Positions 2,859 to 33,661 of a stretch of 64,000 nucleotides of DNA are shown here, piece by piece (the first letter of the stretch is position 1; each line of letters starts with the position of its first letter). The DNA comes from a virus. The notes below the pieces were generated by a model, which ran no database searches, had not been told where the DNA came from, and was given only the letters and a program-made list of their open reading frames with translations. Made by a program: the position numbers and the translations under genes. The stretch is from the IMG/VR virus record IMGVR_UViG_3300025887_000011, positions 1 to 64,000 of that record; one strand, 5' to 3'.

Positions 2859-3920
2859 TTATAAATCGTAAACTACTGTCAACACTGGATTCGTTCCATA
2901 AGTGGCGGCATATCCTGTTGCTCCAGATGGAACATGAATCTCCGCTGGAGATACTGAGGTCATGTTATTGAAAGCAGTAGAGTTAATTGTTGGTGCTGTT
3001 GTCGCTAGAATGTTGGCAGATGTAATGGAAGAGCAACCACGAAAAGCATAAAACCCAATACTTGCAACACTATCAGGTATAGTTAACGAACCATTAAAGC
3101 TATTACAATCACGAAAAGCATAACCCCCAATAGTCGTAACACTATTCGGAATCACTAAGTCGCCAGTTAAGCCAGTGCAATAAGCAAAAGCACTAGTCCC
3201 AATACTCGTAACACTATTTCCAATAGTTAACGAACCAGTTAAGCCAGAGCAACTACGAAAAGAATAATTGCCAATAGTTACAACACCATTTCCAATAGTT
3301 AATGATGTGAAGCCGTTACAATTTTCAAAAGTGAAACTCGCAATATTTGTAACACTGTCTGGAATAACTAAATCTCCAGTGAAGCTTTCGCAACCACGGA
3401 AAGCATAATCTCCAATAATTTGCACAGTATTTGGAATTACTAATAAACCAGTTAAGCTTCCGCATTCATAAAAAGCCGATTGGCCAATACTTACTATACT
3501 ATTTCCAAGAGACAATGAGTTAGCAAGAACACAATAACCAAAAGCGTCACTCCCAATACTTGTAACTCCATCTCCTATTACTATCGCTCCATCTAATAAA
3601 CTTTCCGCATCACTACCCATGTAAAAAGCATAACTACCAATACTTGTAACACTATCTGGAATAACTAAATCTCCTGTAAGCCCATAACAATAAGCAAAAG
3701 AGTAATTTCCAATACTTGTGCATGAACTACCTATCTGTAATTTTTTTAAAGACTGGTCATTGTACTTCCAGTCATCAGGAATAGAGCCTATCACTTGATC
3801 AATAGTGCCTTGGGTATTATCCCAAACAATAGTTTGTGTTCCTATATTGCCAACACCTTCTTCTTGTAGAGTGAGTTCAATTACGCCGTTGGTAGTTAGT
3901 CCTGCGTATGCTTTGCTCAT
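2859..3920 (-). CDS. BspA-type leucine-rich repeat (LRR_5) protein 2
   Basis: A 353-residue paralogue of the neighbouring gene. The first 58 or so residues (MSKAYAGLTTNGVIELTLQE...) are nearly the same as in the gene at 2222-2854, after which roughly eleven 23-residue LRR_5 units run to residue 310. The end EIHVPSGATGYAATYGTN...VVYDL differs from that of protein 1 but resembles the end of the 5301-6494 protein (EIHVPAASSW...VIKDL). Heads, repeat arrays and tails have therefore been re-combined among paralogues. It shares one base (3920) with the upstream gene. Confidence 0.8.
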   Translation of the reverse strand: MSKAYAGLTTNGVIELTLQEEGVGNIGTQTIVWDNTQGTIDQVIGSIPDDWKYNDQSLKKLQIGSSCTSIGNYSFAYCYGLTGDLVIPDSVTSIGSYAFYMGSDAESLLDGAIVIGDGVTSIGSDAFGYCVLANSLSLGNSIVSIGQSAFYECGSLTGLLVIPNTVQIIGDYAFRGCESFTGDLVIPDSVTNIASFTFENCNGFTSLTIGNGVVTIGNYSFRSCSGLTGSLTIGNSVTSIGTSAFAYCTGLTGDLVIPNSVTTIGGYAFRDCNSFNGSLTIPDSVASIGFYAFRGCSSITSANILATTAPTINSTAFNNMTSVSPAEIHVPSGATGYAATYGTNPVLTVVYDL

Positions 3921-5300: not shown

Positions 5301-6494
5301 TTATAAGTCTTTTATTACTGTTAATCCATTCCATGTACTGCCAGCTACCCAAGAGCTTGCTGCGGGTACATGAATCTCTGTTGCATTATTTCCACCTGCA
5401 AATGGATTAACTGACGTTGGTGGTGGAGATGTCCTATAATATTCTATTCTTGTAAATGCACACCCATTGAACGCATTATTACCCACAGAAGAAGTAGTTG
5501 CTGGCAATACCAATGTACCAGTCATAGATGCGCAGAGATACAGCAAACCATTCGGTATTGCTGTAAGACCAGAACCTATGGTCACAGAAGTAAAATTATT
5601 ATTTCTAAAGCAAAATGTACCAATTATAGTTACCGTATCAGGTATATTGAGATTCCCAGTAAAACTACAATATTCAAAAGCTGCACCATTGATTGTTGTA
5701 ACATTGCTAGGTATAATCAAATTCCCAGTCATAGAGGTGCAGTTACTAAATATTCTAGCTCCAATGGTATTAAAGCTAGGATTTATAGGTAAAGTTAGGC
5801 TTGTTAAGCTAGAGCAACCCCTAAAAGCATTACCCCCAATACTTGTAACACTATCTGGGATAGTTAATGAGCCAGTTAAGCTATTGCAAAAACCAAAAGC
5901 ATAACTCCCAATACTTGTAACGCTATTTCCAATAGTTAATGAACCAGTGAAGCCAGTGCAACTATTAAAAGCGGCAAACCCAATAGTCGTAACACTATCT
6001 GGAATAGTTAATGAACCAGTAAAGCCAGAGCAAGAACGAAAAGCATAATTCCCAATACTTGTAACGCTATTTGGAATAATCAAGTCACCAGTTAAGCTAG
6101 CGGCTCCAATCGATTGGTCAAAAGCCTCATCTCCAATAGTTACAACACTATTTCCAAGTGTTAAAGAAGTTAAGTTACCGCAATAAGCAAAAGACCTATA
6201 GGATATACTCGTAACACTGTCTGGAATGACTAATGAACCAGTTAAGCCATCGCAAAGATAAAAAGCATTACTTCCAATACTTGTGCAACTTGTGCCAATT
6301 ACTAATCCTTTTAAATCAGCCCTAGCGTCATAAAACCCACTACTCTGAGTAATATCTCCGTTATGAACTACCCTGATTTCACCATTATTTATTCCACCAA
6401 GACCATAGGATGATGAGCCAATATTAGTCGCTCCAGCTTGTAAGTTAAGCTCGACTACATTGTTAGTTACGTCTCCTTTGAATGTTTGACTCAT
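5301..6494 (-). CDS. BspA-type leucine-rich repeat (LRR_5) protein 4
   Basis: A 397-residue protein and the first and longest of the four tandem LRR_5 genes. Its N-terminus (MSQTFKGDVTNNVVELNLQA...) resembles that of protein 3. Roughly twelve LRR_5 units follow; the first half is regular (TSIGxxAFxxC), and those around residues 230-350 are more diverged (SFNTIGARIFSNCTSM, TINGAAFEYC). The C-terminal EIHVPAASSW...LTVIKDL is shared in type with protein 2. It is preceded by the 288-residue fibre gene at a distance of 3 bases. Confidence 0.8.
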   Translation of the reverse strand: MSQTFKGDVTNNVVELNLQAGATNIGSSSYGLGGINNGEIRVVHNGDITQSSGFYDARADLKGLVIGTSCTSIGSNAFYLCDGLTGSLVIPDSVTSISYRSFAYCGNLTSLTLGNSVVTIGDEAFDQSIGAASLTGDLIIPNSVTSIGNYAFRSCSGFTGSLTIPDSVTTIGFAAFNSCTGFTGSLTIGNSVTSIGSYAFGFCNSLTGSLTIPDSVTSIGGNAFRGCSSLTSLTLPINPSFNTIGARIFSNCTSMTGNLIIPSNVTTINGAAFEYCSFTGNLNIPDTVTIIGTFCFRNNNFTSVTIGSGLTAIPNGLLYLCASMTGTLVLPATTSSVGNNAFNGCAFTRIEYYRTSPPPTSVNPFAGGNNATEIHVPAASSWVAGSTWNGLTVIKDL

Positions 6495-10989: not shown

Positions 10990-11952
10990 ATGGACAAAGG
11001 AAGCATGAAGGTTGCTAGAGAATTGTTGAGCTTAGAGCCAACAGCTATAGTAGAACTATACACAATATACCCAAACTTCAAAAAAAGAAGCGATGTGGTT
11101 TTTAATGTTCATAATGGTTCATTATTTGGAGGAGATATAGTATGGCAAGGTGTCAATTATAGCCCTCTACCAATGGAAATAGAAGGTTTCGAGGTGGAGG
11201 CAAACGGCAGATTAAGCAGACCGAAACTTAGAATATCAAATAAAGATCTTTATTTGTCTGATTTGCTTTCTAAATGGGATGATTTTATTAATGGAAAGGT
11301 TTACAGAAAAAGAACATTTTTAAAATTCATAGACGATGAAAACTTTGATGGAGGGAATCCTTTTGGAGAAGCCGACCCAACAGCAGAATTGACAAATCAA
11401 GTTTTTCTTGTTTCTCAAAAAACACAAGAGAACAGGGCTTATATAGAATTAGAACTTACAACACCCCTTGATTTAGACAACAGCCAAATAAATAGCAGAA
11501 GGATTATGGCTAAATTTTGCTATTGGAAATATAGAGGCAATGGTTGTGGATATGAGGGTCCACCGCTACAAAAAGGAGATGGATTACCTTTTTATAATTT
11601 TACTGGTAGTATCCAAGACCCAAGAGGTATACCAGATTTTAAATACGGAAACCCAGATGATTTGTATGACGAAAATAAAGTTTATGGAATAAATGAACTT
11701 TCATACGTAGAAAATCCAAATGTAATGGTAAGTGATCCTGAAGGATTTAAAGATCCAGAGCCAGCATTAACTTATTATGTAGCTTCTTCTGGTGATTTGA
11801 GTGGATATCATCCAGAAAAACACCCAGAATACTGGAATGCTGACGGATGCAATAAACAGCTGTCTTCTTGCAAATTAAGATTTGGGGATGAAAGAATACC
11901 ATTTGGAGGATTCCCTGGGACTCAAGGTTATCAATTTAGGGCTGGTAGTTAA
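10990..11952 (+). CDS. L: Minor tail protein L (lambda gpL-like, Fe-S type)
   Basis: A 320-residue tail-tip protein that in lambda joins the tip complex next to gpM, gpI and gpJ. The N-terminal half follows the gpL pattern (ELLSLEPTAIVELYTI..., then FEVEANGRLSRPKLRISN). The C-terminal part has four Cys: C177 and C186 (C-x8-C, in FCYWKYRGNGCGYEG), and C287 and C294 (C-x6-C, in GCNKQLSSCKLRFG), followed by PFGGFPG. This spacing is that of the iron-sulfur site of lambda gpL, except that about 100 residues lie between the two pairs, far more than in lambda. First gene of the L-K-I-I-I-J operon; no Shine-Dalgarno. Confidence 0.9.
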   Translation: MDKGSMKVARELLSLEPTAIVELYTIYPNFKKRSDVVFNVHNGSLFGGDIVWQGVNYSPLPMEIEGFEVEANGRLSRPKLRISNKDLYLSDLLSKWDDFINGKVYRKRTFLKFIDDENFDGGNPFGEADPTAELTNQVFLVSQKTQENRAYIELELTTPLDLDNSQINSRRIMAKFCYWKYRGNGCGYEGPPLQKGDGLPFYNFTGSIQDPRGIPDFKYGNPDDLYDENKVYGINELSYVENPNVMVSDPEGFKDPEPALTYYVASSGDLSGYHPEKHPEYWNADGCNKQLSSCKLRFGDERIPFGGFPGTQGYQFRAGS

Positions 11953-11960
11953 TAAAAATA

Positions 11961-12374
11961 ATGAAAAACAACAAAAAAGAAATTTTTGAGTCTCAAGATT
12001 TAGAAAAGTGCCTAGATAAAATAAAGGATTGGTCTACAAAAAGAAAAGCTGTAGAAATCTGCGGTTTTTTAGGTTTTAAAAATGATAAATATATATTGTG
12101 GCATTGTCAAAATATAGCAGAAGACCCTACTAAATACTTCGCAATAGACCCTTTAGATTTTCTAGTTTTTAAGGAAGAAAATAAAATACTTTGCGTTTTT
12201 CATAGTCATATATTTGGCAATGAAAACCCATCTGAATTTGATGTTACTATGTCTGAAAACTGTTGCGTTCCATTTATGATTTATTCATTGAATACAAAAA
12301 AATTCAAAATATTCAAACCAAAGACTAACGAAGCAGACGGTTTTATATTATCTAAAGTAGAGAAAGCTATATGA
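11961..12374 (+). CDS. JAMM/MPN metalloprotease-like tail protein (lambda gpK N-domain)
   Basis: A 137-residue protein with the JAB/MPN (JAMM) fold. E32 lies in EICGFLG, H81 and H83 in FHSH, and S91 and D94 in PSEFD, giving the full E...HxH...SxxD zinc site. Lambda gpK has this domain followed by an NlpC/P60 peptidoglycan hydrolase; here the second domain is absent, so only the JAMM part is kept. The position between L and I matches lambda gene order. It overlaps the following gene by 4 bases. Role: tail-tip assembly or processing. Confidence 0.85.
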   Translation: MKNNKKEIFESQDLEKCLDKIKDWSTKRKAVEICGFLGFKNDKYILWHCQNIAEDPTKYFAIDPLDFLVFKEENKILCVFHSHIFGNENPSEFDVTMSENCCVPFMIYSLNTKKFKIFKPKTNEADGFILSKVEKAI

Positions 12375-13789
12375 CTAAAGTTGTTATACATGGAAATCTT
12401 GCTAATGTTTTTGGAAGGGATTTTAAATGCAAAGTGTCTTCTATAAAAGAGGTATTTAATTTTCTTGAAGCAAATAGACCTGGTTTTTATGCAAAACTAC
12501 AAAAACTGTCAAAACAGGGAATGCATTATGCTATCATAGCAGACGGAGAAAAACTCTCTAAGTTAAATCAGATAGAGAATATAAAAAAAATAAAAAGAAT
12601 AGATATTGTTCCTGCTGTAGTTGGAAGCGGACCAATAGCAGTTGGAATAGGAGCAACAATTGCAACCATAGGTTTATCTACAGCTTTAGCAGCTGGCACA
12701 ATAAGTATGACTACATTTATTATAGCTTCTGTAGTAGTTGCTGTTGTCAGCATGGCATTACAAATGATGCTTGCTCCCAAACCCCCAACGCCTCCAGCAA
12801 TAGAAAGCACAACTAGAGCTTTGGAGCAATCGTTCACTTTTGCGAATAAAGATAATGTAGCCGCTCAAGGGTCTCAAATACCATTCGGATATGGAAGACT
12901 TCTTTGTCCAACTTTTGTAATTGAATCTTCAACGAAAAATTACCCGCAAAACATCAGAGCTAACCAAATATTTTCAAACGAAATTAAAGACAACTACCTA
13001 GGTGGCAACGTCGATAGAGAAAAATCAAGTATTGTTTTCCCAACAGAAAAGCCTGACAATGTAGAAGTTTGGGGGCAAGATTCCAGTTTTGATTTTGAAC
13101 ATGAATCATTTTGGGACCCTCTTCAATGTATAGGCGCTCGGAGTTTGCAAATCGAAGGAATAGGAACTCATCTTGTTGAGTTTCACGACGATCCTAATCA
13201 TAGATTAAAGGTTTATCGATGGAACCAATCGTCTACTCTTAATTACACAAACTACTTTCAACAATCGCTTGGGGCGGGATTCTGGTCGGGAGTGTTTTAC
13301 ATGAATGGAGACGGAGGGATTCAACAACGTGTTCTAACTCCCAACGGAATGAACTCTGGATTCTATCAGTATAATACAATTAGTTTCGAAAATAACACCC
13401 CAGAAGTCCAAAGAGACAATCCTCATTGTCAACCTCCTTATGTATCTCCACAATGGGGCAAGAGCGTAAGTTTCGACGTCAAAAACTCCATACGAATAGT
13501 TGTGACAGATTATGATCAAAAACCAGGTTACAATCCTTCAACAGACCCAAGTCCTCCTGGAATCATACGTGCAGAATTTTCTATTAATTTCACAACTACA
13601 AGAACAGTTATATTTGGCAAAACGGGAGAAATTCCACAAAACCTGGACAGAACAAAGATTTTTTATTGGCAGGTTTCAAACTCTGGTAAACCGTCTTCTT
13701 ATCCAAACTATGGGCCTGGCCCATTAACAAGATTTGGAGCAACAAACGGGCAAAGTCCTTCAATAGATAACGGTAAGCTTATAATCTAA
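12371..13789 (+). CDS. Tail assembly protein I-like, copy 1
   Basis: A 472-residue protein. Residues 1-82 are the ubiquitin-like domain of lambda gpI (MTKVVIHGNLANVFGRDFKC... to IDIVPAVVG). A long hydrophobic stretch, about 86-136 (GPIAVGIGATIATIGLSTAL, FIIASVVVAVVSMALQMMLA), resembles two membrane segments. Then come KPPTPPAIESTTRALEQ and GSQIPFGYGRLL, which is where ordinary gpI ends. A unique 290-residue C-terminal extension follows, rich in Trp, Asn and Pro. GpI is about 220 residues in lambda. The stop codon overlaps the next start by one base. Confidence 0.8.
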   Translation: MTKVVIHGNLANVFGRDFKCKVSSIKEVFNFLEANRPGFYAKLQKLSKQGMHYAIIADGEKLSKLNQIENIKKIKRIDIVPAVVGSGPIAVGIGATIATIGLSTALAAGTISMTTFIIASVVVAVVSMALQMMLAPKPPTPPAIESTTRALEQSFTFANKDNVAAQGSQIPFGYGRLLCPTFVIESSTKNYPQNIRANQIFSNEIKDNYLGGNVDREKSSIVFPTEKPDNVEVWGQDSSFDFEHESFWDPLQCIGARSLQIEGIGTHLVEFHDDPNHRLKVYRWNQSSTLNYTNYFQQSLGAGFWSGVFYMNGDGGIQQRVLTPNGMNSGFYQYNTISFENNTPEVQRDNPHCQPPYVSPQWGKSVSFDVKNSIRIVVTDYDQKPGYNPSTDPSPPGIIRAEFSINFTTTRTVIFGKTGEIPQNLDRTKIFYWQVSNSGKPSSYPNYGPGPLTRFGATNGQSPSIDNGKLII

Positions 13790-15090
13790 TGACAAAAATA
13801 TTTCTACACGGAATTCTTGGAGTGAAGTTTAAAAAAACTTTTGTTGCTAAAATAGATAAAATTGAAGATGTCTTTGGTTTTTTAAAAGCCAACAATCCAA
13901 AGTTTGAAAAAGAAATTTGCGACATGCATTTAAATGGCGTTAATTACTGCTTGATAGTAGATGGAAAAAAAATAAAAACAAAGGAAGAACTTAGTTTAAA
14001 GAAAAGACCCAAAGAAGTTCACCTGGTCCCTATCTTAGTCGGCCATGGACCATATTCAGCTATAGCTGTTATTGTTGCAAAAGTTATCTTCGCCGTAGTT
14101 GCTTTGTATCTTATTGTAATTTTGCTAACCTCTAAACCACCAAAACCGCCAAGCCTGGAACAATCGACAAGAGCTTTAGAAGAGTCTTACGGCATTAACA
14201 ATAAACCCAATATAACAGCACAAGGAACACAGGTTCCAGTAGGTTATGGAAGATTACTTATTGGAACTCACGTTATAGAATATACTGAAAAAAACTACCC
14301 ACAAAACGTCAGGGCTAACCAAATATTTTCGAATGGAATTAAAGACGGCTACTTAGTTAGTAGCGAACCTAATATTAATACAATACTATGGCCAACAGAA
14401 ACCCCTCCAGAGTACGACGGCTGGGGCGACAATCAGGTTCTAGAATACGAGGGCGAGACATATCACGACCCAGACAGAAATCATGGAGGCACAGGACCAT
14501 TAATATTTCGATGTTGGGAAGGTATTTCTTTTCTTACATTCGGTTACTACTCAATTACAACCCATGTCCCAGAAGGCGGGCTAAACAAGCAAAGATTTGC
14601 TCTTTGGAGTATGCCTATTGATAATTACAACACGGAAAGGACTTCAAGACCTGAAATCTGCACTTCAGGAAGTTCAAGTATTAATGGTGTCCAAAGATGG
14701 TATTTCGGCAGTCTCACACAAATGACCGACAGTAATACTAATGAATTCTACCTAACCAAATACCCGACAAGCAGGCCAGATCCAGAAACAGGAGATCATA
14801 TACTAGGTCGTTTTACTATAACGATCTCTAATGTTATCAAGATTACATACTTTGATAATGGATATGAACTCAGCGGGAACTGCTCAACTGTCTATTACCC
14901 TCCGTGCAACAGGGGTGTATATCTAAATTACCTTACCGTTCCAGAAACAGACAACAACGGTCGATGCCAAATACTCACTACTAAGATTCCTAATATTAAT
15001 TGTGGAATAGATGAAGCTTTTAAATTTAGGGCAGGAGGCTCGCTAATTCAAGGGGCTGAAATTCCTTACGGTGAAGTACCACAAGGTTAA
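13789..15090 (+). CDS. Tail assembly protein I-like, copy 2
   Basis: A 433-residue paralogue. The ubiquitin-like domain (residues 1-80) is the most diverged of the three, and the hydrophobic region is shortened to one segment (IAVIVAKVIFAVVALYLIVI). The GTQVPVGYGRLL and NVRANQIFSNGIKD core is kept. Its extension shares with copy 3 the blocks DPDRNHGGTGPLIF and CSTVYYPPCNR. The DNA for the first block differs by a single base over about 40, which suggests recent gene conversion or duplication. No Shine-Dalgarno before the ATG. Confidence 0.8.
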   Translation: MTKIFLHGILGVKFKKTFVAKIDKIEDVFGFLKANNPKFEKEICDMHLNGVNYCLIVDGKKIKTKEELSLKKRPKEVHLVPILVGHGPYSAIAVIVAKVIFAVVALYLIVILLTSKPPKPPSLEQSTRALEESYGINNKPNITAQGTQVPVGYGRLLIGTHVIEYTEKNYPQNVRANQIFSNGIKDGYLVSSEPNINTILWPTETPPEYDGWGDNQVLEYEGETYHDPDRNHGGTGPLIFRCWEGISFLTFGYYSITTHVPEGGLNKQRFALWSMPIDNYNTERTSRPEICTSGSSSINGVQRWYFGSLTQMTDSNTNEFYLTKYPTSRPDPETGDHILGRFTITISNVIKITYFDNGYELSGNCSTVYYPPCNRGVYLNYLTVPETDNNGRCQILTTKIPNINCGIDEAFKFRAGGSLIQGAEIPYGEVPQG

Positions 15091-15113
15091 CAGCAAAATT
15101 TAAAGAATACAGT

Positions 15114-16613
15114 ATGACAGAAGTAGTATTACATGGAAACTTAGGTGTTAAGTTCGGTAAAAATTTTAAATGTAAAATTTCTTCTGTAAGAGAGGTGTTT
15201 GATTTTATAGATGCAAATAGACCTGGATTTTCTGAATGTCTTAAAAAACTATCTCAGCAAGGCATGCATTATGCCCTTATATTAGATGGTAAAAAGCTTT
15301 CTGACATGAAAGAAATAAATAATAAAAAGAATATAAAAAAAATAGACATTGTTCCAGCTGTCTTAGGAAAAGGACCAATAGCAGTTGGGATAGGGTCGAC
15401 AATTGCAACCATAGCCTTATCATCTGCGTTGGCAGCGGGAACTATAAGTCTTACTACTTTTATAGTAGCATCTGTTGTTATAGCTGTCGTGAGTATGGCT
15501 TTACAAATGATGCTTGCTCCCAAACCTCCAGAAGCACCGTCAATAGAAGCTACAACTAGAGCTTTACAGCAGTCATTTTACTTTGCAAATAAAGCAAACA
15601 TAGCAGAACAAGGAAATACTATTCCAGTTGGTTATGGCAGGTTATTAGTTAGCAGTTATGTGATTGAAGCTTGTAACAAAAACTTCCCGCAAAACACCAG
15701 AGCTAACCAAATATTTTCAAACGGAATTAAAGACAACTACTTAGGTGGTAACGACAAAATAAATATAGATATTTTATTCCCAGATGAAGAGCCTCCTCCA
15801 GATTATCGTGGATGGGGCAGTTCGGTGAGTTTAAGTGGAAACTCTGATTTATATTTTGACCCAGACAGAAATCATGGAGGCACAGGACCAGTAATATTTC
15901 AATGTTGGCAATCTCCTTTTAAGAGTGGAACGTCAAGTTTCGCCTATAGCGTTTCACATCCATATGGTTTTAGGGGTCTTATCTGGGCTCTGTTCAATAG
16001 AGGATCGTCACCAAGACTTAGTTACGCTAAAATAAACCAGTATGGAGGCAGCCCAACCTCTAATTGGGGAGCAAAAGGAATGGCCCAGGTACCCTCTGAC
16101 GGTGTTCCGTTTGAAGGGGTATCAGAAGCAGTTATGCAGGACATTGCTGGTAATGTTCAATGGGGCAATCCATGGGGAGACAGCCAAATACAACAAGGCC
16201 TTGTCGATGTCGCTCAATATAACGACGGTGGGTATCAAGACTACGGGAAAGAAATAAAAATAGCTAATGGATCTTATTCGTACCAACTTTATCTTGTTAA
16301 TTACTTTAACACTTCTTTCAACCCTATAACGAAAGAAGGTGTTATTGCAGAGTCTGTTATAAACGTGAGTCACAATGTAAACGTTATAATGTTCGACAAT
16401 GGATGGCTTCCTAGGTCCGAACCACCCCCAAATGAATGTTCGACTGTTTACTACCCTCCATGTAACAGAATACAGGTTTACGCAAACCAAGGCAATGGAG
16501 GCAACGAATGCACGGTCGGATCTGGAAATATAAAATCTGGACCAATATTTAGAATGGGCGTCATAAATGCAGGAGGTTTAGGAGCTCAAGGAGGAGAAAA
16601 GTCAACTTATTAA
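15114..16613 (+). CDS. Tail assembly protein I-like, copy 3
   Basis: A 499-residue paralogue closest to copy 1 over residues 1-215 (same FKCKISSVREVF, GMHYALILDGKKLS, two hydrophobic segments, QMMLAPKPP, TTRALQQSF), but its extension is related to that of copy 2 (DPDRNHGGTGPVIF, CSTVYYPPCNRIQ). It is therefore a mosaic of the other two. It lies 16 bases before gene J, the normal place for gene I. The extensions may form surface or receptor-facing parts of the tip (inference). Confidence 0.8.
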   Translation: MTEVVLHGNLGVKFGKNFKCKISSVREVFDFIDANRPGFSECLKKLSQQGMHYALILDGKKLSDMKEINNKKNIKKIDIVPAVLGKGPIAVGIGSTIATIALSSALAAGTISLTTFIVASVVIAVVSMALQMMLAPKPPEAPSIEATTRALQQSFYFANKANIAEQGNTIPVGYGRLLVSSYVIEACNKNFPQNTRANQIFSNGIKDNYLGGNDKINIDILFPDEEPPPDYRGWGSSVSLSGNSDLYFDPDRNHGGTGPVIFQCWQSPFKSGTSSFAYSVSHPYGFRGLIWALFNRGSSPRLSYAKINQYGGSPTSNWGAKGMAQVPSDGVPFEGVSEAVMQDIAGNVQWGNPWGDSQIQQGLVDVAQYNDGGYQDYGKEIKIANGSYSYQLYLVNYFNTSFNPITKEGVIAESVINVSHNVNVIMFDNGWLPRSEPPPNECSTVYYPPCNRIQVYANQGNGGNECTVGSGNIKSGPIFRMGVINAGGLGAQGGEKSTY

Positions 16614-16628
16614 AAATAAATTTAAAAA

Positions 16629-19600
16629 ATGAAACATTATGAATTAAAAACAGAAGTAGCTGGAGCAGGAGGAAGAAAAGGCAAAAAGCCAAAACCAGCA
16701 ACACTAAAGCCGCCTAAACTTGGCGACTATAAAGTGGCTTCATCTTATACTTATGCAGAAATTTTAGATTTGGTCTCTGATGGCCCTATAGAAGGTCTTG
16801 TTAATAAAAATGGTTATACACTTCCATATAACGCTTTGCTTCAAGGCGTTTATCTTAATAATGTTCCAGTAGAAGAGACAAACGAAAATTTCTTAACAGA
16901 AGCAGGTATAAAAACACCACTTTTGGACCAGTCAAAATTCTCTAGCGGGATTAAAGAAATGTTTGACGATATTCAATTTTCGACAAGGGATGAGATAGAA
17001 GATAAAGGTTTACTTTACCCAGATACAGATAATTTTGCTGACGCTAAAGAAGTATATTACTCTTTCAATACTGGGCTTTATAAGGGCAATCAATTTATAA
17101 ATAAAGTAGAAGATTTAAGTTCTTTAATAAATTTCCCAGCAGACATAAGAAATCCAGAAAAATACCCAGTTGTTACATATGGAGATACTTACGTTTCTGG
17201 AAAATCCGATAACACTCCAATTAGAGGCTCTTTTTTCTCAGACAATAAGTATGAAGCTAATTTTTCAATGGGAATAAAACATATAAATGATGTTTTCCAA
17301 GAAGGAACGAACGCAAAAAAGGGTTTGGATGAATTCTTAGAATCAGTTTATTCAGACAATTTATATATCGGGGAGTACGCAAAAGGAAAACTAAGGTCTT
17401 TCGGTTATACAGAAGAAGATATAGACAATGGAGTAGGAGAACAAAACATAAAAAACCTTTTTGCCAATATATTTTCAAAGCAAATACCAGATTGGTATTT
17501 AAATAGCAATGACTTTATAACCCCTTATGTTTGTATTACTGTAGATGGGGTAATGGAAGGTTATGAATTTTATAATCATGTAAACTATTTTCTAGAAAAA
17601 GATGAAAGTGGTTCTGTTACATCAAAATTAAATTATTATGCTGATTTTGATCTTGATTCAGAATCTAGGTCTGAAGGTCTAAACTTGTCTAGTAATACTC
17701 TATCAATGTTTATTCCGAATTTAGCCGAAAACGGAACTTGGGATGGAAAAGTTCAAGGTTTTTATTTCTTTCTATTAGATGCTGAGTCTGTTGTTTACGA
17801 AAATATAGAAAAAGTTTCTGGTCCTTCTGATTTTGACGCTTTGACTATGGGGATAGATCAGTCTGAACTTTCGTTTTTGAGGAGTTTAAAAGGATTTATA
17901 CTTTCAGACAACAACCCATTGAACAATGAAAAAGCTCCTAAAAAAATAATACCATACTACGAACTATACTCTTTTGAGAGAAAGCTTGTAGATACTGGAG
18001 GATGTGTATTCACAACCGAACTTAACAGGGTATCTTTAGATAAAGGATATTCAGACCAAGATTCCATAGAGTCTATATCTGAAGATAAATATCAAAGCGA
18101 TGTTATAAGAAAAGGCGTTCAAGTTAAGTGGAGTTTTAAATATCAAACTTATCGAGAACGCTTTATGGAAATACCTATAGATATTTGGTGTAAAAAAGTT
18201 TCTGGCATCACTACAGATATACATTATAAAGCAAGGGTATTTTTAGATGGAGAATTAGTCTTAACAGAAGAAAAGACAAATTGGAACACTAATGGAACCG
18301 ATAACCCAGAGCTTTCTGTTAGGATTCCTCCTTCTCAGTTTTTGCAAACAATAACTCTCGATATTGTTGCCTACTCGAGTTTAGAAACCCCAACTTCTTG
18401 CCCTTTTTCATTACCTGTAATACCTGAAGTTAGAGCTAGAGTATTTAGACCTGATATATTTCGTGAGCTTGAAGATGATATTGAAGCTCAAGATGTTGGT
18501 GCGGTAAAATATAACTGGTCAAATGTTTTGGCTGAGTTTAGGCCAGGTTCAAGAAACCAAGCGCCATTAACATATTTTAAAGATGTTAATGTCGATTATA
18601 ATTATCAATACACGCTTCTTGGTCCTTTTAACCCAGATAAAAATGACGGGACGACTGTGCAAAGGATAGTGCAAGGAGACGGAAAACTTAAAAAGCCCGA
18701 CAAGTATCCAATATTAAATATGGCATCAACATTCGTACCTACAATGGACGAAGAATACCTAAGTGCGATACAAGAAGGAAGCTCTGACAAAAGATGGACT
18801 GGAGCTTATAAAACAATTAGTTCTTCTGGCGGTGGTTTAAAAATACGAATAAAGAATCCTGATGACTTCGCTGGTTGGGATGTTAACGGACAAGATTATT
18901 CTGAAGAAGCACAACCTTTAACGCACATTATAGAAAACCCAAATGTAACATCTGTATGGTTTACTTTAAATATAGATGCTTTAAAAGATACTGTACATAG
19001 ATCGATAGGAGACCCAGCTGAACCAGATGTAGATGCTGGATCATCTTTACCAGCAAACGTAAATATAAGAGTAGAGACAGGATTAATAGACTACAACGGA
19101 AAAACAACTACGACTTATAGTAAACTATTTCAGATAACAGCGCTAGTAGAATCTCCTTCTTTGTTGGATATTGGAAATTCAGACAACCAAGGATTACAAT
19201 CTTATTTCGACTATATAAATGTGTATAATGATATTAATGAAGTCGATCAAAATAATAACCCTATCGATAGAGGAGGGATGTTTTCCCCTTTCTTGTTGGA
19301 CGATCCTAAATCTCAAACTGGAGATCCAGATTTAAATACCAAAAACCAAGAACATACATCTACAAAAAGATTTATAAGAGTCACTAAATTGACAACAGAA
19401 ACCAGCTCTACCTTAATTTTCAAAGAGGTAGGTGTTGTAAAATTTTCAGAAATCATACCAGGGCAATGTCAATATCCGTATTCAGCTTACTGTGGCATCA
19501 AAATCGATTCTCGAGTTTTTGCAGACATACCATCAAGATCATACGAAGCTAAATTAAAAAAGGTAAAAATACCATCTAATTACTTCCCTACTTTTAGAAA

Positions 19601-21323
19601 TGGAAAAGACAAAAGGTATTATGACAAAGCTAATTCTTACTCTGTGGCAAGTGGTGAGGATAGACATATATACAAAGGAGACTGGGACGGCACATTTAAA
19701 TTTGCATGGACAGACAATCCTGCTTGGATACTGTACGATGTAATACTTAATGATCGTTATGGACTAGGTGGATTTGTAGAAGCGTCATCTGTAAACAAAT
19801 GGGATTTATATAAAATAGGAAGATTTTGTGATGCTGTAGACGAACAAGGTTATTTTGTTGGTTTAGATGACGGAAGAGGAGGTTTAGAACCTAGATTTTC
19901 TTGTAATATAATGTTCTCTGAAGAAACTAAAGTATTTGATGCTATAAACACAATAGCTACTATATTTAGAGGTGTTGTCTATTATAATAATTCTACTATA
20001 GAATTCTCTGATGATAGACCAAAAGAACCTATAGCTCTTTTTACTAACTCTAATGTAAAAGAAGGAATTTTCACTTACTCTAATTACCAAAGAGACGAGC
20101 AAATAAATACAATAGAAGTTGTTTATATTGATAGGTACGATGGATATAAAACTAAACTAGAATTAGTAGAAAACCAAGCAGATATAGCAGAAAGAGGGAT
20201 ATTTAAAAAATCAATTAATGCATTCGGAATTACTTCAAAAGCTATGGCCAGAAGGGCTGGAGATCATTTTCTTTACCAAACCACAAAAGAAAACCAATCA
20301 GTGGCTTTTAACTGCGGTTTAGAAACTCTATTATGCAAACCTGGTGATTTAATAGTTGTTGATGATGAACTGAAATCATTTAAATCAAATTTTGGAAAAG
20401 TGTTAGATGTCAATAACAATGAAAAATCAGTAAGAATATCGCAAAGCTTTCTACCAAATGATTACGATGCGCAAATTACTCTTTATAAACCATCTAAATT
20501 AAACGATGTTGATTCAATAGATGATAGTATATCTTTTTATAGATCTAGATTAGATACCTTTACTATACTAGGAAATAACACTGATTTATTGGCAGGTAGC
20601 GGATGGAACAACATGATTGGAGAGTGGCAATTTAGCGGCTACACAAGTGGATACCAAGAAGTAAAAGACGCTGTAGGAAATTATATATCCCCTCTTCAAG
20701 AAGAGTATGCATTATATAAAAATATAGAACCTACTTCTTCTGGTTATTCTCCTACTCTCTGGTTTAATACAGAAGCTCAAGGTTGGGTGTTTTCTACTGG
20801 AAATTATTCAAATTCAGGAGCTTTAGAAAATAATAATTTATTTATATTAGAACCTAATTTATTCAGCTTTTTGGACCTTCAGTTGTTCGATCCAAACGAC
20901 TTGACAAAAACCCGTATTAAAAAATACGAGCCGATTAATCAAGATAAAAGAGGAGCTACTATAGGAAACTTTACTGGTGACTTTATTTATAATGACCCAA
21001 GCGTCGATCTTGTTTATTACAACGGTAATCAATCTACAGAATCCACAATAGGAAGCAGCGTCCAAATATTTTCCGTACCTATAACTGGATGGGGATCATC
21101 TGAGTATGGGGACGATGTCTTTGTAGATAAAGACGATATAAACTCATCTTTACTTGAATTCGTTCCTATTGGAACAACTTATAGATTTACTATTAAAGAC
21201 GAAAAAGATAGTATATATAAAGTAACCTCTATAAAAGAAGAAGGAAGAAGTGAGTTTTCAATTATAGCGACAAAATTTGATACTGGCAAGTACGACCTTA
21301 TAGATAAGGGGGGTGCTTTCTAA
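16629..21323 (+). CDS. J: Host specificity / tip attachment protein J
   Basis: A 1564-residue gpJ homologue; lambda gpJ is 1132. The N-terminus is canonical: Gly/Lys-rich AGGRKGKKPKP, then SSYTYAEILDLVSDGPIEGL (about residues 39-58). The conserved tail-tip core lies late, at about 980-1200 (NPAWILYDVILNDRYGLGGF, LYKIGRFCDAVDEQG, EPRFSCNIMFSEETKVFDAI). A long low-similarity region of roughly 850 residues separates the two. GpJ forms the trimeric tip that contacts the host receptor and lets DNA pass. It is the last gene of the operon and its stop is 4 bases from a convergent small gene. Confidence 0.88.
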   Translation: MKHYELKTEVAGAGGRKGKKPKPATLKPPKLGDYKVASSYTYAEILDLVSDGPIEGLVNKNGYTLPYNALLQGVYLNNVPVEETNENFLTEAGIKTPLLDQSKFSSGIKEMFDDIQFSTRDEIEDKGLLYPDTDNFADAKEVYYSFNTGLYKGNQFINKVEDLSSLINFPADIRNPEKYPVVTYGDTYVSGKSDNTPIRGSFFSDNKYEANFSMGIKHINDVFQEGTNAKKGLDEFLESVYSDNLYIGEYAKGKLRSFGYTEEDIDNGVGEQNIKNLFANIFSKQIPDWYLNSNDFITPYVCITVDGVMEGYEFYNHVNYFLEKDESGSVTSKLNYYADFDLDSESRSEGLNLSSNTLSMFIPNLAENGTWDGKVQGFYFFLLDAESVVYENIEKVSGPSDFDALTMGIDQSELSFLRSLKGFILSDNNPLNNEKAPKKIIPYYELYSFERKLVDTGGCVFTTELNRVSLDKGYSDQDSIESISEDKYQSDVIRKGVQVKWSFKYQTYRERFMEIPIDIWCKKVSGITTDIHYKARVFLDGELVLTEEKTNWNTNGTDNPELSVRIPPSQFLQTITLDIVAYSSLETPTSCPFSLPVIPEVRARVFRPDIFRELEDDIEAQDVGAVKYNWSNVLAEFRPGSRNQAPLTYFKDVNVDYNYQYTLLGPFNPDKNDGTTVQRIVQGDGKLKKPDKYPILNMASTFVPTMDEEYLSAIQEGSSDKRWTGAYKTISSSGGGLKIRIKNPDDFAGWDVNGQDYSEEAQPLTHIIENPNVTSVWFTLNIDALKDTVHRSIGDPAEPDVDAGSSLPANVNIRVETGLIDYNGKTTTTYSKLFQITALVESPSLLDIGNSDNQGLQSYFDYINVYNDINEVDQNNNPIDRGGMFSPFLLDDPKSQTGDPDLNTKNQEHTSTKRFIRVTKLTTETSSTLIFKEVGVVKFSEIIPGQCQYPYSAYCGIKIDSRVFADIPSRSYEAKLKKVKIPSNYFPTFRNGKDKRYYDKANSYSVASGEDRHIYKGDWDGTFKFAWTDNPAWILYDVILNDRYGLGGFVEASSVNKWDLYKIGRFCDAVDEQGYFVGLDDGRGGLEPRFSCNIMFSEETKVFDAINTIATIFRGVVYYNNSTIEFSDDRPKEPIALFTNSNVKEGIFTYSNYQRDEQINTIEVVYIDRYDGYKTKLELVENQADIAERGIFKKSINAFGITSKAMARRAGDHFLYQTTKENQSVAFNCGLETLLCKPGDLIVVDDELKSFKSNFGKVLDVNNNEKSVRISQSFLPNDYDAQITLYKPSKLNDVDSIDDSISFYRSRLDTFTILGNNTDLLAGSGWNNMIGEWQFSGYTSGYQEVKDAVGNYISPLQEEYALYKNIEPTSSGYSPTLWFNTEAQGWVFSTGNYSNSGALENNNLFILEPNLFSFLDLQLFDPNDLTKTRIKKYEPINQDKRGATIGNFTGDFIYNDPSVDLVYYNGNQSTESTIGSSVQIFSVPITGWGSSEYGDDVFVDKDDINSSLLEFVPIGTTYRFTIKDEKDSIYKVTSIKEEGRSEFSIIATKFDTGKYDLIDKGGAF

Positions 21324-28048: not shown

Positions 28049-28077
28049 ATATTAAACTATCTTGATCTGATTGTCAA
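28049..28077 (-). promoter_or_regulatory. Leaderless sigma70-type promoter; decides the start of the small basic gene
   Basis: Minus strand: TTGACA (28072-28077), 17 bases, TAATAT (28049-28054). The second of two in-frame ATGs (28038-28040) lies 8 bases downstream of the -10; the first lies only 2 bases away and would not be in the transcript. The promoter overlaps the 3' end of the Clp gene. Confidence 0.62.
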
Positions 28078-30490
28078 CATCTTTTATTGTTATTTGTGAT
28101 TTTTTAGAATTTGAAATAACTATTTTAGCCAATGGTATGTGGATTTTATCGTAGATATACCTTTTTATATCTCTTGCATGCATTTTCTTATTAGTAATAT
28201 CCTGAAAAATGCAGTTAATTGATGATGCTTTTACGTTTATTTCAAGACCTCTATCGTGCAACTTGTTTTTAACTTTATCAACCTCATGTTTTATGATTCT
28301 TTTCATGTCAGAGTCGCATAGCTCATCAAAAACCAAAACATCATTTATCCTTGCTAACAGTTCTGGTTTTAATTCTTTTTTTACGGAGTTTTTATAAGAA
28401 TCCTCTTCGCTCTCATCATTTTGGACAAAACCCATACTTCTTTTTTTAACTTCTTTATGACCTATATTACTAGTAAGTATTACTATAGATTTAGAAAAGT
28501 CTACTTTTTCATGTTTGTTATCCTCCACGTAACCTTCATCTAGAAGATGAAGCAATATATTTAGTATTTGAGGGTCAGCTTTTTCAACCTCATCAAACAA
28601 AACGACACAGTTGGGATTATCTTTAACAAAATTAGTCAATAAGCCCCCTTCTTCGTAACCAACATAGCCAGAGTTAGAACCAATAAGTTTACTAATTCCT
28701 GTCTTATCATAAAGCTCGCTCATGTTGATTTGGAGAATAGCTTTTTCATTACCAAAAAAGTTTTTTGCTATTTTTTTAGCCGTGTAAGTTTTACCAACAC
28801 TAGTAGGCCCAACAAAAAACATGCTAGCTAAAGGTTTGTTTTCCTCTGTTAAACCTGCTTTAGCGCAAGAAAGTAAGTCTGTAATAGTATCTATTGCTTT
28901 ATCTTGACCGAATACTTCTTTTTTAATCCTTGAAGAGAAAGAAGTGAAGTTTTGACTTCCAGATTTAACTTGATCAGCTGAAATTTTTGCATGTTCAGCT
29001 ATAACATCAATTATATCTTCTTTCTTTATTTTTATAGGTTTTACATCTTTGTTATTCCTGACGCCATCTAGATCATCAAGAAAGTAGTTTAGTTTTTCTT
29101 TTATTAAAGTTTCGCTGATTTCTTTTTCTGTTAAGCATTTTATTAGATCGTCGTGCTTATCCATTATATCTTTACAAGGCTTTGAGTTCTTAATTTTAAC
29201 TCTAGATCCAACTTGGTCTATTATATCAAAAGCTTTATCTGGAAACTTTTTATTACTAATTAAACTAGAAGAAAAATCAACAACACAATCTATAATGGGT
29301 TTAGTGAAAATTACGTTGTGAAATTCTTCATACTTGCTTTTGCATTTGTAAAGTATTTGTTTTGTTTCATCTTTTGTAGGCTCTTCTACTTTAACCTCAA
29401 AGAATCTACGCTTCATCGCGCTATCCTTTTTGAATATTTTATTATATTCTTCAGTTGTTGTAGCTCCTATACATTTAATTTCTCCTCTAGCTAAATAAGG
29501 TTTCATCATGTTCGCTGCATCTATGCTACCTTCTTGGTTGCCTCCTGCTCCAAATATAGTATGTATCTCGTCAAAAAATAAAACTGTATTAGTAGACTTT
29601 TTAGCCATCTGTAATAGAGATTTAAACTTTTGCTCGAATTGACCTCTATACTGAGTACCAGCAAGCATTGATCCTATATTGACGCTAAGTATTTCCATAC
29701 CAAACATATTAGATGGTATTTCTGCTTTGCATATTTTAGCAACAAGAGCTTCTACAATCGCTGTTTTTCCAACACCAGCATTACCAGTTAATATTGCATT
29801 GCTTTTATTTTTTTTAGATATTGTTTCTATAAGCAGCGATACCTCATCGTCCCTGCCATAGACATCTGGAAGTCCGCCCTCCATATAAACACTGTTTAAA
29901 TGAGTTACAAAATCTGGAGTTTCTTCTTCTTGTTCGTTATAAGTTTCCAAAACTTGAACTTCATCAACTAAATCTTCCATTCCAAAATATGAATTGTCCT
30001 CTTCAGACAGATCAAAATCACCATTAACAAAAATAGCTAGTTTTTCTACAAAAGATTCGTACTCTAAAATATTATCACTAATACATTCAGATACATGTAC
30101 AGATGTATTTAATAAAGCTAAGATTATATGCTCTACACCTATATAGTGTTGATCTAACTTATGAGATATTTTGTTAGCTTCTCCAATTGTATAAACTACT
30201 TCTTTATTCCAAGGGTCAGAGTTTTTATTTACAAAAAAATGCTTGCTATCTTTTTCAGCAGATTCTTTTATAATATCTAAAGCTTCATGATGATTTATCA
30301 TGAAGCCATTAATCATTAAAAAATTGGTGATTTCTGTAGATGCATTTTTTAAACAGCCATATAAAACGTGCAAGTTAGTTATGTTTTTATGCCCAAGTTC
30401 TTTTGAAACTGAATAAGCATCTGTATATGCTTTTTTTGCTCTAGGGGTAAGGTTAAAGTCTTTAAATATCACGTTGTTGTTTACACTCAT
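28052..30490 (-). CDS. Clp/Hsp100 AAA+ ATPase (ClpA/ClpC-like)
   Basis: An 812-residue full-length class I Clp ATPase. N-domain repeats span about 10-155. AAA+ 1 has Walker A GNAGVGKT (236-243) and Walker B VLFFDEIH (303-310). AAA+ 2 has Walker A GPTSVGKT (561-568) and Walker B VVLFDEVEKA (629-638). The long ClpB coiled-coil middle domain is not seen, and SMGF (685-688) lies where ClpA/ClpC carry their ClpP-docking tripeptide, so docking to host ClpP is possible. It follows the polymerase gene with a 4-base overlap, in one transcript with PHP, exonuclease and polymerase, suggesting replisome remodelling or proteolysis during infection (inference). Confidence 0.88.
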   Translation of the reverse strand: MSVNNNVIFKDFNLTPRAKKAYTDAYSVSKELGHKNITNLHVLYGCLKNASTEITNFLMINGFMINHHEALDIIKESAEKDSKHFFVNKNSDPWNKEVVYTIGEANKISHKLDQHYIGVEHIILALLNTSVHVSECISDNILEYESFVEKLAIFVNGDFDLSEEDNSYFGMEDLVDEVQVLETYNEQEEETPDFVTHLNSVYMEGGLPDVYGRDDEVSLLIETISKKNKSNAILTGNAGVGKTAIVEALVAKICKAEIPSNMFGMEILSVNIGSMLAGTQYRGQFEQKFKSLLQMAKKSTNTVLFFDEIHTIFGAGGNQEGSIDAANMMKPYLARGEIKCIGATTTEEYNKIFKKDSAMKRRFFEVKVEEPTKDETKQILYKCKSKYEEFHNVIFTKPIIDCVVDFSSSLISNKKFPDKAFDIIDQVGSRVKIKNSKPCKDIMDKHDDLIKCLTEKEISETLIKEKLNYFLDDLDGVRNNKDVKPIKIKKEDIIDVIAEHAKISADQVKSGSQNFTSFSSRIKKEVFGQDKAIDTITDLLSCAKAGLTEENKPLASMFFVGPTSVGKTYTAKKIAKNFFGNEKAILQINMSELYDKTGISKLIGSNSGYVGYEEGGLLTNFVKDNPNCVVLFDEVEKADPQILNILLHLLDEGYVEDNKHEKVDFSKSIVILTSNIGHKEVKKRSMGFVQNDESEEDSYKNSVKKELKPELLARINDVLVFDELCDSDMKRIIKHEVDKVKNKLHDRGLEINVKASSINCIFQDITNKKMHARDIKRYIYDKIHIPLAKIVISNSKKSQITIKDVDNQIKIV

Positions 30491-33030
30491 TTTAGTTCTG
30501 AAAGTTTCATATAAATTTTTTCTCTTAATGGACGAAGGGTGTTGATGAATATCAAATCGTCAGCGGTATCACCAACAACTATAACAACGTCACCTTTCTT
30601 CGGCAACTTATTACCACAATTTAGGTAGTCTGTCAACCTTTCTTGTCTGTCTGAATCCATAAATAATCCAGAAACAGTTCCAAGTTCATCATTTATATCA
30701 AGCCTAGCATACTTATTTCCATTTCTACTTGTCCTCCTGCTTATATCTGCAATAATACCCACAAATTTAACAGTTCTTCTTGCTTGAGAAAGCCTGATCT
30801 CCTCAGATGTCTGAAAAGACTCTTCATCGCCGCTACTAAATATCTCTCTTACGTTATAAGAATAACTATATCCAAGTAGTTTGGTCTCAAAAAACCAATT
30901 AGCAAACTTTAAGTGGCTTGTGTTTTGTTCGTAAATGCTTTTATATGGATCATACTTTTTCTTAAAGGTGTTAAATCTTTTGTCTGAAAAAAGAACTCTA
31001 CCATCATCAGCGGGTGTGGTCTCAGACCTGCAATCATGAATTGTATTTAGGATATCATAGTTGAATTTAGGTCCTAGTTCTATTACATTTCTTTTTTCTC
31101 TGTCAGTTAATATATTGAATGTTTGAGCCTCAAGAACTAATCTACATCTGTCTTTATCAACAAAAGAATCAAGAAGACCAGCTTGGGCAAACGCAGACAT
31201 AGTTCCTATATTAACACCGCAATCTTTTGCCGTGATAAATACATCATACTTGTTTTTAAAAGATCCTTCTCTGAACTCAACCAGCGATTCCATAACTTTA
31301 TCTGAAACACCTTTAATTGAATTTAATCCATATCTAATGTTTTTACCTTCAATTTTGAAATCAAAACCTGACAGATTTAAATCTGGAGGAAGTAGCTTTA
31401 TGTCAAAAAAAGAAAGCTCTTGAGCAATACTTGTAATCTCATCATGAGAATTTGGCTCGAATCTCGCCATTTTCAATAAACTTAAGAAGAATTCTTGTGG
31501 GTAATTAAACTTAAGGTAAACTGTAAGTGCGGCTAAATATGCATACGATATACTATGAGACTTATTAAACGAATAGTTAGCTGAGTCTTCAGCAACCTTC
31601 CATAAGACTTCTCCTATTACTGGATCTAAATTGTTACTTTTTATTTTTTCTTCAATTTTAGCTTTCCATGCTGGCATGTCCTCAACCTTTTTCTTTCCTA
31701 CTATTCTTCTAAGTTGCTCTGACTCATCAAGACTAAAGCCAACTTTAACAGCCATCTTCATTAACTGCTCTTGGTAAAGAGGAATGCCTCCTGTATAACT
31801 AAGTATATCATCAAAAAATTCATGCACACAATTGAACTCTCCAGTTCTTACATATTCAGCATAACTATCTTTGAAATCCAAAGCCCCTGGACGAGCTATA
31901 GCGACAACGGCAGACAATTGCTCAAGGTTTCTGGGCGCGACTTGCTTACAAACCTTGAAGTTTACTTCCGCTTCGATCTGAAACAATCCTTTAGGTTGTT
32001 GGAGACAAGCTAACGCTGCATAGATGCTTTCGTCGCTAGGGTCGATGTCACAGGCTTTGATGCCAATTTGGTTACATACGTCATGAACCACTGAAAGCGT
32101 CCTCAGTCCAAGTATATCGAACTTAACACTAAGGCTTGCTACGTCATCCATATCATAACCAGACACTAAAGCTCCTTCATTTGTTTTTTGAAGAGGCATT
32201 ATGTCTGTCTGATTATAATAGCTAATCGATATTCCAGAAGGATGGACTCCAGTATTCTTTATTAAACCTTCTAGTTTTTTTGATATTTTAAATGACTTCT
32301 TGTACTTGTCAGCATAAACTCTGAAACTTTCACTTTCTTCGTAAGCTTGCGAAAGCTTTGCTACCTTCCCAAAGTGTTTTGGTATAGTGTCACTAATTTG
32401 ATTAACATCTATCTCGGATAAACCATCAACGATTTTGCCACATTCTTTAACACAAAGCTTAGAACTTAAAGTATTTAAGGTTAAAATCTTAGATGTTTTT
32501 CCTTTATATTTTTTTTCAATGTATTCAATAACTTCAACTCTTCTATCATAGGATATATCGTTGTCCACATCAGCCAAAAGAGAACCATCTAAATAAGTTA
32601 CTCCGTTATGCTCTATTTTTTTAGCCCTACTCTTAGAAACAAAACGCTCAAAGAAAAGCTCGTATTTAATAGGGTCAATATTGGTGACCCCAAGCAGGTA
32701 AAGAACCAAGCTTCCAGCAGCGCTACCTCTGCCAGCACCAGTTGGGATATCTTTAGATTTACAAAAGTCAAGTATGTCCCAATTCAAAAGTATATAATCG
32801 ACAAAACCAAGCTCCTCTAAAATTTCCAGTTCAGTTTCTGTTCTTTTGTAATACTCAGATCTGTTTTCTTTTTTAGTTATGCCTCTTTCTCTCAAACCCT
32901 TTCTGCAAAGCTGTTTTAGAATATCAAAACTAGAAGCGTTAGAGTCTAGATCTAAATCTTTTAAAGTTTTATCAGGAACTTCGATTTCTGGGAGCTTAAC
33001 TCCTACTGGGAATGGCGTTTGATAGTTCAT
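30487..33030 (-). CDS. dnaE: DNA polymerase III alpha subunit, catalytic part (PHP-less)
   Basis: An 847-residue C-family polymerase without the N-terminal PHP domain. GAGRGSAAGSLVLYLLGVTN (98-117) is the conserved palm motif. The catalytic aspartates are D156 and D158 in LADVDNDISYDRR and D305 in VKFDILGLRTL. Fingers (RRIVGKKKVEDM region, then NYSFNKSHSISYAYLA) and a C-terminal OB domain (RTVKFVGIIADISRRTSRNG) are present. Bacterial DnaE is about 1160 residues; the missing front end is encoded separately at 33662-34405, with the exonuclease gene between. ATGA-type overlaps join it to the exonuclease and Clp genes. Confidence 0.9.
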   Translation of the reverse strand: MNYQTPFPVGVKLPEIEVPDKTLKDLDLDSNASSFDILKQLCRKGLRERGITKKENRSEYYKRTETELEILEELGFVDYILLNWDILDFCKSKDIPTGAGRGSAAGSLVLYLLGVTNIDPIKYELFFERFVSKSRAKKIEHNGVTYLDGSLLADVDNDISYDRRVEVIEYIEKKYKGKTSKILTLNTLSSKLCVKECGKIVDGLSEIDVNQISDTIPKHFGKVAKLSQAYEESESFRVYADKYKKSFKISKKLEGLIKNTGVHPSGISISYYNQTDIMPLQKTNEGALVSGYDMDDVASLSVKFDILGLRTLSVVHDVCNQIGIKACDIDPSDESIYAALACLQQPKGLFQIEAEVNFKVCKQVAPRNLEQLSAVVAIARPGALDFKDSYAEYVRTGEFNCVHEFFDDILSYTGGIPLYQEQLMKMAVKVGFSLDESEQLRRIVGKKKVEDMPAWKAKIEEKIKSNNLDPVIGEVLWKVAEDSANYSFNKSHSISYAYLAALTVYLKFNYPQEFFLSLLKMARFEPNSHDEITSIAQELSFFDIKLLPPDLNLSGFDFKIEGKNIRYGLNSIKGVSDKVMESLVEFREGSFKNKYDVFITAKDCGVNIGTMSAFAQAGLLDSFVDKDRCRLVLEAQTFNILTDREKRNVIELGPKFNYDILNTIHDCRSETTPADDGRVLFSDKRFNTFKKKYDPYKSIYEQNTSHLKFANWFFETKLLGYSYSYNVREIFSSGDEESFQTSEEIRLSQARRTVKFVGIIADISRRTSRNGNKYARLDINDELGTVSGLFMDSDRQERLTDYLNCGNKLPKKGDVVIVVGDTADDLIFINTLRPLREKIYMKLSELK

Positions 33031-33659
33031 ATTTCAATTTCTAAAATTTGTCTTCTAAATATTTGGAAGTTCATTTCGATGTCATAAAGAGCATCATGTA
33101 AACGTTTCTGGTCAAAAGTAATATCATATTTTTTAAGCAGAGTCAACTGAGAAGTTTTTAAACCTCTCTCCCTAAAGTTTAGCCATTTATATTGCCAGTA
33201 AATAAAATTATCTTTATCCACTGGGGCGTTTTTAGCTATGGCCGTAGCTATAGCTTTAGTGTCAATGATTCTCTTGATATAAGATTGATCTAGTTTTTCC
33301 CCAATAAGATTTCTCCATACATCAACCATATAAACATCAAAAGCAAGAAGGTTTTGCCCTACGATTAAATAGTCATCATCATAAAGGTATTTTGAGAACT
33401 CGCTCCAAACTTTATCTGCTGGTTCCGAATTGTTCTTGTAATACTCTTTATCAAAACCAGTTATTCTTGCAGCGTCTGGAGAAACGTTTAAGTCGTCCCA
33501 ATGTATAAGTTTATCGTATTTTTTAATAACTCTGTCTCCCTCAACAACAATCCAAGCTGCTTGCCAAGGCTTAGACTTGATTAGATTCAAGCCTTCAGTT
33601 TCTGTATCAAATATGATATATTTTTGGTTTCTTTTAAACCTAAGAAGTGATTCATTCAT
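33027..33659 (-). CDS. DnaQ-like DEDDh 3'-5' exonuclease (proofreading)
   Basis: A 210-residue protein from the ATG at 33659; an earlier in-frame ATG at 33692 would add 11 residues and overlap the PHP gene, while 33659 begins 2 bases after that gene's stop. In the longer numbering the active site is D29 and E31 (IIFDTETEGL), D119 (VGQNLLAFDVYM), H199 and D204 (RLHDALYDI), a complete DEDDh set. The fold is the proofreading exonuclease type. Lying between the PHP and polymerase genes, it probably supplies proofreading to the split Pol III alpha. It overlaps the polymerase gene by 4 bases. Confidence 0.85.
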   Translation of the reverse strand: MNESLLRFKRNQKYIIFDTETEGLNLIKSKPWQAAWIVVEGDRVIKKYDKLIHWDDLNVSPDAARITGFDKEYYKNNSEPADKVWSEFSKYLYDDDYLIVGQNLLAFDVYMVDVWRNLIGEKLDQSYIKRIIDTKAIATAIAKNAPVDKDNFIYWQYKWLNFRERGLKTSQLTLLKKYDITFDQKRLHDALYDIEMNFQIFRRQILEIEI

Positions 33660-33661
33660 AA

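Follow-up and report, generated by a model that had tools for sequence, protein, structure and literature searches.

In phage lambda, gpI (TAPI, the tail tip insertion or plug protein; PHROG 32; PDB 8iyk and 8xcg) is the 223-aa product of one gene between K and J, and three gpI molecules sit with three gpJ in the tip, where gpI plugs the tube and contacts gpJ through three beta-augmentations (PMC11101478, PMC10721106); in older literature, gpI was held to be absent from the mature tail (PMC1779556). The JAB protein gpK is encoded beside this ubiquitin-like gpI with its conserved terminal glycines, and in the prediction of Iyer et al. (2006) the ubiquitin-like domain of gpI is set free by the gpK JAB domain (PMC1779556). 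Pseudomonas phage phiAH14a has more than one gpI, with two TAPI genes that lack an extension, the second being inverted and outside the tail operon (PMC4936722); besides these two separate genes, neither extended nor tandem gpI turned up in the literature searched, most subscription journals lying outside its scope.

The window analysed here is a stretch of 64,000 nucleotides, part of a virus record of 91,807 bases. Its gpI genes likewise lie between K and J and align with lambda gpI through the ubiquitin-like N-terminus, the hydrophobic segment(s), the plug/beta-hairpin and the C-terminal tail, but where lambda has a single gene without extension, the window has three, each with a C-terminal extension of about 240-285 aa. 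What sets these genes apart within the known gpI family is their triplication together with their extensions and homogenised docking tails.

Three gpI genes between K and J

Three intact gpI-family reading frames occupy the interval between K and J, all on the plus strand and of 433-499 residues, just as the preliminary description had placed them: I1 (12371-13789, 472 aa, type A; PHROG 32, E 5e-29), I2 (13789-15090, 433 aa, type B; E 5.5e-19) and I3 (15114-16613, 499 aa, type A; E 1.8e-29). Matches to PHROG 32, the gpI "tail assembly protein", span residues 1-185, 1-163 and 1-184, respectively, and a profile built from all three picks out the lambda gpI chain of solved tail-tip structures (8iyk chain I, E 5.3e-7). 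I1 and I3 are 66% identical over residues 1-250, in line with the suggestion that copies 1 and 3 share their N-terminal half, and I2 and I3 are 46% identical over residues 1-266, so that homology is not confined to residues 1-80. By every sequence feature tested except copy number and length, the three belong to the gpI family; gpI is usually one gene of about 180-255 aa, and we regard the departure from this form as the variation itself, which leaves the homology unaffected. Beyond these three, the 91,807-base record contains no gpI gene.

It is very unlikely that the triplication arose in assembly, because a second contig (IMGVR_UViG_3300022178_005891) carries all three genes within 16.5 kb of 99.99% identity, and most of copy 2 together with copy 3 recurs in a third; both contigs are independent of the window. 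In another near-identical contig (L013:902-2400), copy 3 is split into two reading frames of 177 and 317 aa, a break that could be a sequencing error or a genuine frameshift.

Among the neighbours, the gpK counterpart (11961-12374, plus strand, 137 aa; Prok-JAB, E 9.5e-8) scores 32.4 bits for the JAB domain PF14464 against a Pfam cut-off of 25. Unlike lambda gpK, it consists of the JAB-type peptidase alone, Pfam and PHROG searches finding no fused NlpC/P60 domain, and it faces three possible substrates. The gpJ counterpart (16629-21323, plus strand, 1564 aa; PHROG 31, E 1.6e-104), the expected docking partner of gpI, is most variable between about residues 115 and 620. The gpL counterpart (10990-11952, plus strand, 320 aa; Phage_tail_L, E 1.5e-46) is a short form with four invariant cysteines (C177, C186, C287 and C294) and without the large insert carried by most relatives. 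In the gpL of L015, L018, L020, L023 and others, this variable insert follows the last conserved cysteine and precedes the conserved PFGGFPGT end, bringing the protein to 590-1110 aa; it had no family match.

Elsewhere in the window, a minus-strand gene (54275-60109) encodes a protein of 1944 aa with leucine-rich repeats of the BspA type (LRR_5, E 1.6e-136, 13 stretches), uncommon in phages, near a tape-measure-like gene (61937-63961). Matches to the PHROG 405 DNA polymerase fall in two minus-strand reading frames (30487-33030 and 33662-34405, within 30487-34405) with another (33027-33692) between them, so that the polymerase gene looks split; the region 28052-30490 (minus strand) strongly matches a phage ATP-dependent protease family (phrog_4871, E 1.9e-201). 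Two further minus-strand genes (2859-3920 and 5301-6494) both match PHROGs 35892 and 18805, of unknown function, and from this are probably paralogues.

For copy number among relatives, we collected 114 distinct loci with complete gpI through searches with J, gpL and gpI, a set sampled by similarity to the window phage rather than at random. One short gpI was found in 97 loci and two short copies in 12, some of them close kin; one locus (L014) has a single extended gpI, another (L118) two extended copies, gpI is fused to gpJ in two, and three copies, all extended, occur only in the window phage. Since 13 other distinct loci carry two copies, copy number alone could not be regarded as unusual; the trees require at least four separate duplications across the set, and probably five. 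The two-copy IMG/VR phages (L045, L156, L163, L176, L178, L183, L185, L191 and L194) have tandem genes between K and J as in the window, but their products are 190-253 aa long and lack an extension. Fusion of gpI and gpJ in one reading frame, observed in L111, L116 and L117, supports direct contact between both proteins. For cultured phages, tblastn with lambda gpI gave 1499 places in 1497 records, which points to a second recognisable gpI being a great rarity in them, with the caveat that diverged copies may have escaped detection. The duplication is thus recurrent in environmental phages and nearly unseen among cultured ones.

Extended gpI co-occurs with short gpL. By raw locus counts, in which kinship among loci is ignored, long gpL (450 aa or more) accompanies 69 single-gpI loci and 1 two-copy locus, and short gpL accompanies 12 single-copy loci, 1 extended single copy, 8 two-copy loci, L118, the window and 2 fusions.

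Domain order and the C-terminal extensions

Each copy has five parts, in the order ubiquitin-like domain, hydrophobic segment(s), plug/beta-hairpin, docking tail and extension. The ubiquitin-like domain covers residues 1-87 (12371-12631 in I1, 13789-14049 in I2 and 15114-15374 in I3) and ends in an invariant GxG (G85, G87), with P81, G85 and G87 all invariant in 16 sequences. AlphaFold2 modelled residues 1-80 of I3 at a pLDDT of about 80, and Foldseek gave Urm1 (probability 0.97) and MoaD (0.94-0.98) as the best structural matches by probability; the E-values were only 0.05-0.15, because the remaining I3 model is poor. The I1 domain is homologous to this Urm1/MoaD-like model, and the I2 domain was assigned by alignment, with a weak NCBIfam MoaD match below cut-off. 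As modelled, the gpI N-terminus is a ubiquitin-like domain with a terminal glycine, which agrees with the prediction of Iyer et al. (PMC1779556).

Kyte-Doolittle profiles bore out the observation that copy 2 has a single hydrophobic segment (14068-14124, peak 3.03), against two in I1 (12635-12772, the counterpart of lambda H1/H2) and in I3 (15378-15515). The plug/beta-hairpin part that follows contains a GYGRL motif. Next comes a stretch, some 29 residues long, whose counterpart in the alignment is the C-terminal end of lambda gpI (residues about 204-223), and for which we use the name docking tail by analogy with the lambda tip structure: residues 187-215 in I1 (12929-13015), 166-194 in I2 (14284-14370) and 187-215 in I3 (15672-15758).

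The extensions (13016-13786 in I1, 14371-15087 in I2 and 15759-16610 in I3) are the fastest-diverging part of the gpI copies. Six copies have homologous extensions, namely I1, I2, I3, both L118 copies and the single copy of L014; that of I1 is the most diverged, only its start being detectably homologous, whereas that of I2 is homologous to the I3 and L118 extensions. The extension is older than the triplication, because single-copy L014 has it and all six are homologous. Sequence searches of Pfam, PHROGs, NCBIfam, the PDB and viral contigs found no homologue beyond these six. Two AlphaFold2 runs gave a mean pLDDT of 45 for the whole protein and about 37 for the extension alone, too low for a fold to be assigned to the extension, which has no recognised adhesin fold. 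One candidate origin, a gpL insert moved to gpI, was rejected: a BLAST hint between the gpI extension and the L018 gpL insert (36-37 bits) failed in profile comparison, with an hhalign probability of 0.2% for the one group of inserts compared. A new role for the extensions at the tail tip, as proposed earlier, is a plausible hypothesis.

Gene conversion and duplication history

When phages are compared with one another, few parts of gpI are as poorly conserved as the docking tail (copy A of L118 and I3 have 5% amino-acid identity over residues 201-220); when the copies of a single genome are compared, few are conserved so well. Copies from the same genome have docking identities of 0.73-0.88, against between-phage means of 0.31-0.44 at equal core divergence; the value for I1 is 0.77, and I2 reaches 0.73 to I1 and I3 versus a between-phage mean of 0.31. 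Between-phage pairs of similar core divergence, which are not mutually independent, attained the within-genome value in 0/974, 1/112, 0/603, 0/129 and 0/499 cases.

The same segment stands out at the nucleotide level. Uninterrupted identity reaches 53 nt in L045, 47 nt in L118 and 26 nt between I1 and I3, the last pair having two runs of this length, one of them inside the docking tail (at about 12955-12980 in I1). The longest run of silent-site identity falls in the docking tail in L045 (P 11/5000), L118 (24/5000) and I1-I3 (31/5000; aa 192-209); silent-site run tests on cross-phage gpI orthologues gave nothing similar. The two gpI genes of phiAH14a, a phage whose particles are tail-less, share 50 identical nt at residues 164-180, in the C-terminal half, a tract already reported (PMC4936722); the last 30 or so codons of this pair are 95-97% identical in DNA and the first 40 codons 50-65%. 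These patterns argue that the docking tail is homogenised within a genome by gene conversion in the window phage, L118, L045 and phiAH14a, cases that are not fully independent, the window phage and L118 being related. Older pairs (L156, L163, L176, L183, L185 and L191) have diverged docking tails and no conversion tract, so universal homogenisation was rejected. The phage encodes a UvsX-like recombinase (38644-39771), possibly the agent of conversion.

Conversion also reached the extensions. Copies 2 and 3 do share the two motifs singled out in the preliminary description, but not at one base change in about 40: the DPDRNHGGTGP stretch is identical at 33/33 bases (14467-14499 in I2 and 15858-15890 in I3), a run beyond chance (0 of 5000 shuffles) and on this evidence a conversion tract, while CSTVYYPPCNR differs at 7/33 bases, all silently, and looks like conservation at the protein level.

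An early tree with few relatives, later replaced, had joined the three window copies in one clade, an arrangement disfavoured in the larger tree (p-AU 0.029). There, I1 and I3 form a sister pair (100/95), joined by the first L118 copy (99/91), while I2 groups with the second L118 copy (95/95), both on long branches, which calls for caution. The simplest reading of these trees is an A/B duplication before the split between the window phage and L118, followed by a second duplication of type A in the window lineage. Duplication and gene conversion, as proposed earlier, thus find support both in the trees and in the tests of silent-site runs. The further idea that copy 3 is a mosaic holds for the converted patches and not for the gene as a whole: in its core it is the sister of copy 1, and the extension is colinear with both extended L118 copies (BLAST E 1e-13 to 2e-16).

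L118 (JABXKB010000040.1) is the closest relative (gpL 75%, gpJ 62% identity) and has, like the window phage, tandem extended gpI genes with homogenised docking tails, but it has two copies and another docking-tail sequence. Its tail module lies in a record labelled as a Lokiarchaeota MAG, probably a phage contig binned wrongly.

Possible roles of the copies at the tail tip

We propose that I1, I2 and I3 are paralogous tail-tip plug proteins of the lambda gpI (TAPI) family that share or compete for the same sockets. The JAB-only gpK would probably release the ubiquitin-like domain at the conserved GxG, and what is left of each gpI would dock on the trimer of gpJ, where lambda accommodates three gpI molecules. 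On this reading, gpJ changes between phages, all gpI copies of a phage have to fit one set of gpJ sockets, and phage recombination, in which the UvsX-like recombinase may take part, would spread a fitting tail to every copy by conversion. Because conversion keeps the docking tails alike within a genome, the copies probably use the same three sockets and so form a mixed plug. The extensions, since they follow the docking tail, would be expected on the exterior of the tip, near the site of the relatives' large gpL insert, so that up to three different surface domains could be displayed, most likely for contact with the host envelope. We put the probability of this whole explanation at about one half; its weakest steps are the mixed plug itself and the surface role of the extensions. 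A shared gpJ socket is not general, because the tails of L156/L176/L183 and of L163/L185/L191 have diverged without a tract, and the second gpI of cultured phiAH14a, encoded away from the tail operon, suggests that an additional gpI is not necessarily part of the tip.

That last arrangement also favours a division of labour, in which one copy forms the virion plug and the others have tasks confined to assembly or to the infected cell, such as superinfection exclusion; a mixed plug would then not form. The separation of types A and B across the split from L118 and the differing number of hydrophobic segments in most pairs fit such specialisation, but all three genes lie inside the K-J block and all have a docking tail and an extension, with the tails homogenised; we consider it unlikely, while still giving it some weight. 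Should the copies instead be transient products of neutral or dosage duplication, conversion would be a by-product of recombination and the extensions would have no particular function. Tandem gpI duplication has indeed arisen repeatedly, and the phage has recombination genes, yet both types, A and B, have been retained in phages whose J proteins are 62% identical, all copies are open, and conversion is concentrated at one segment in several genomes, which leaves this explanation improbable. About equally improbable is that the tandem copies act mainly as donors, conversion reshuffling pieces of the extension and so diversifying the tip: the 33-nt tract shared by I2 and I3 lies in the extension, the part that diverges fastest, but homogenisation falls mostly in the docking tail and not in this variable part, a search for biased mutation or a dedicated recombination element found none, and every copy is intact and could be expressed.

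Within the mixed-plug explanation, an obligate heterotrimer of one I1, one I2 and one I3 seems to us rather doubtful; if true, a three-fold tip would be deliberately asymmetric, with three different outer domains and with unlike membrane-active helices surrounding one channel. In a lambda-type tail, DNA and tape measure are retained by the gpI plug, and little is understood of this protein's N-terminus and hydrophobic helices. If mixed plugs form, lambda-type tail tips can be heterogeneous, for which we found no description in the searched papers. The locus supplies three natural variants of gpI that are alike mainly in one short tail, which makes this tail the probable docking element, a proposal that can be tested.
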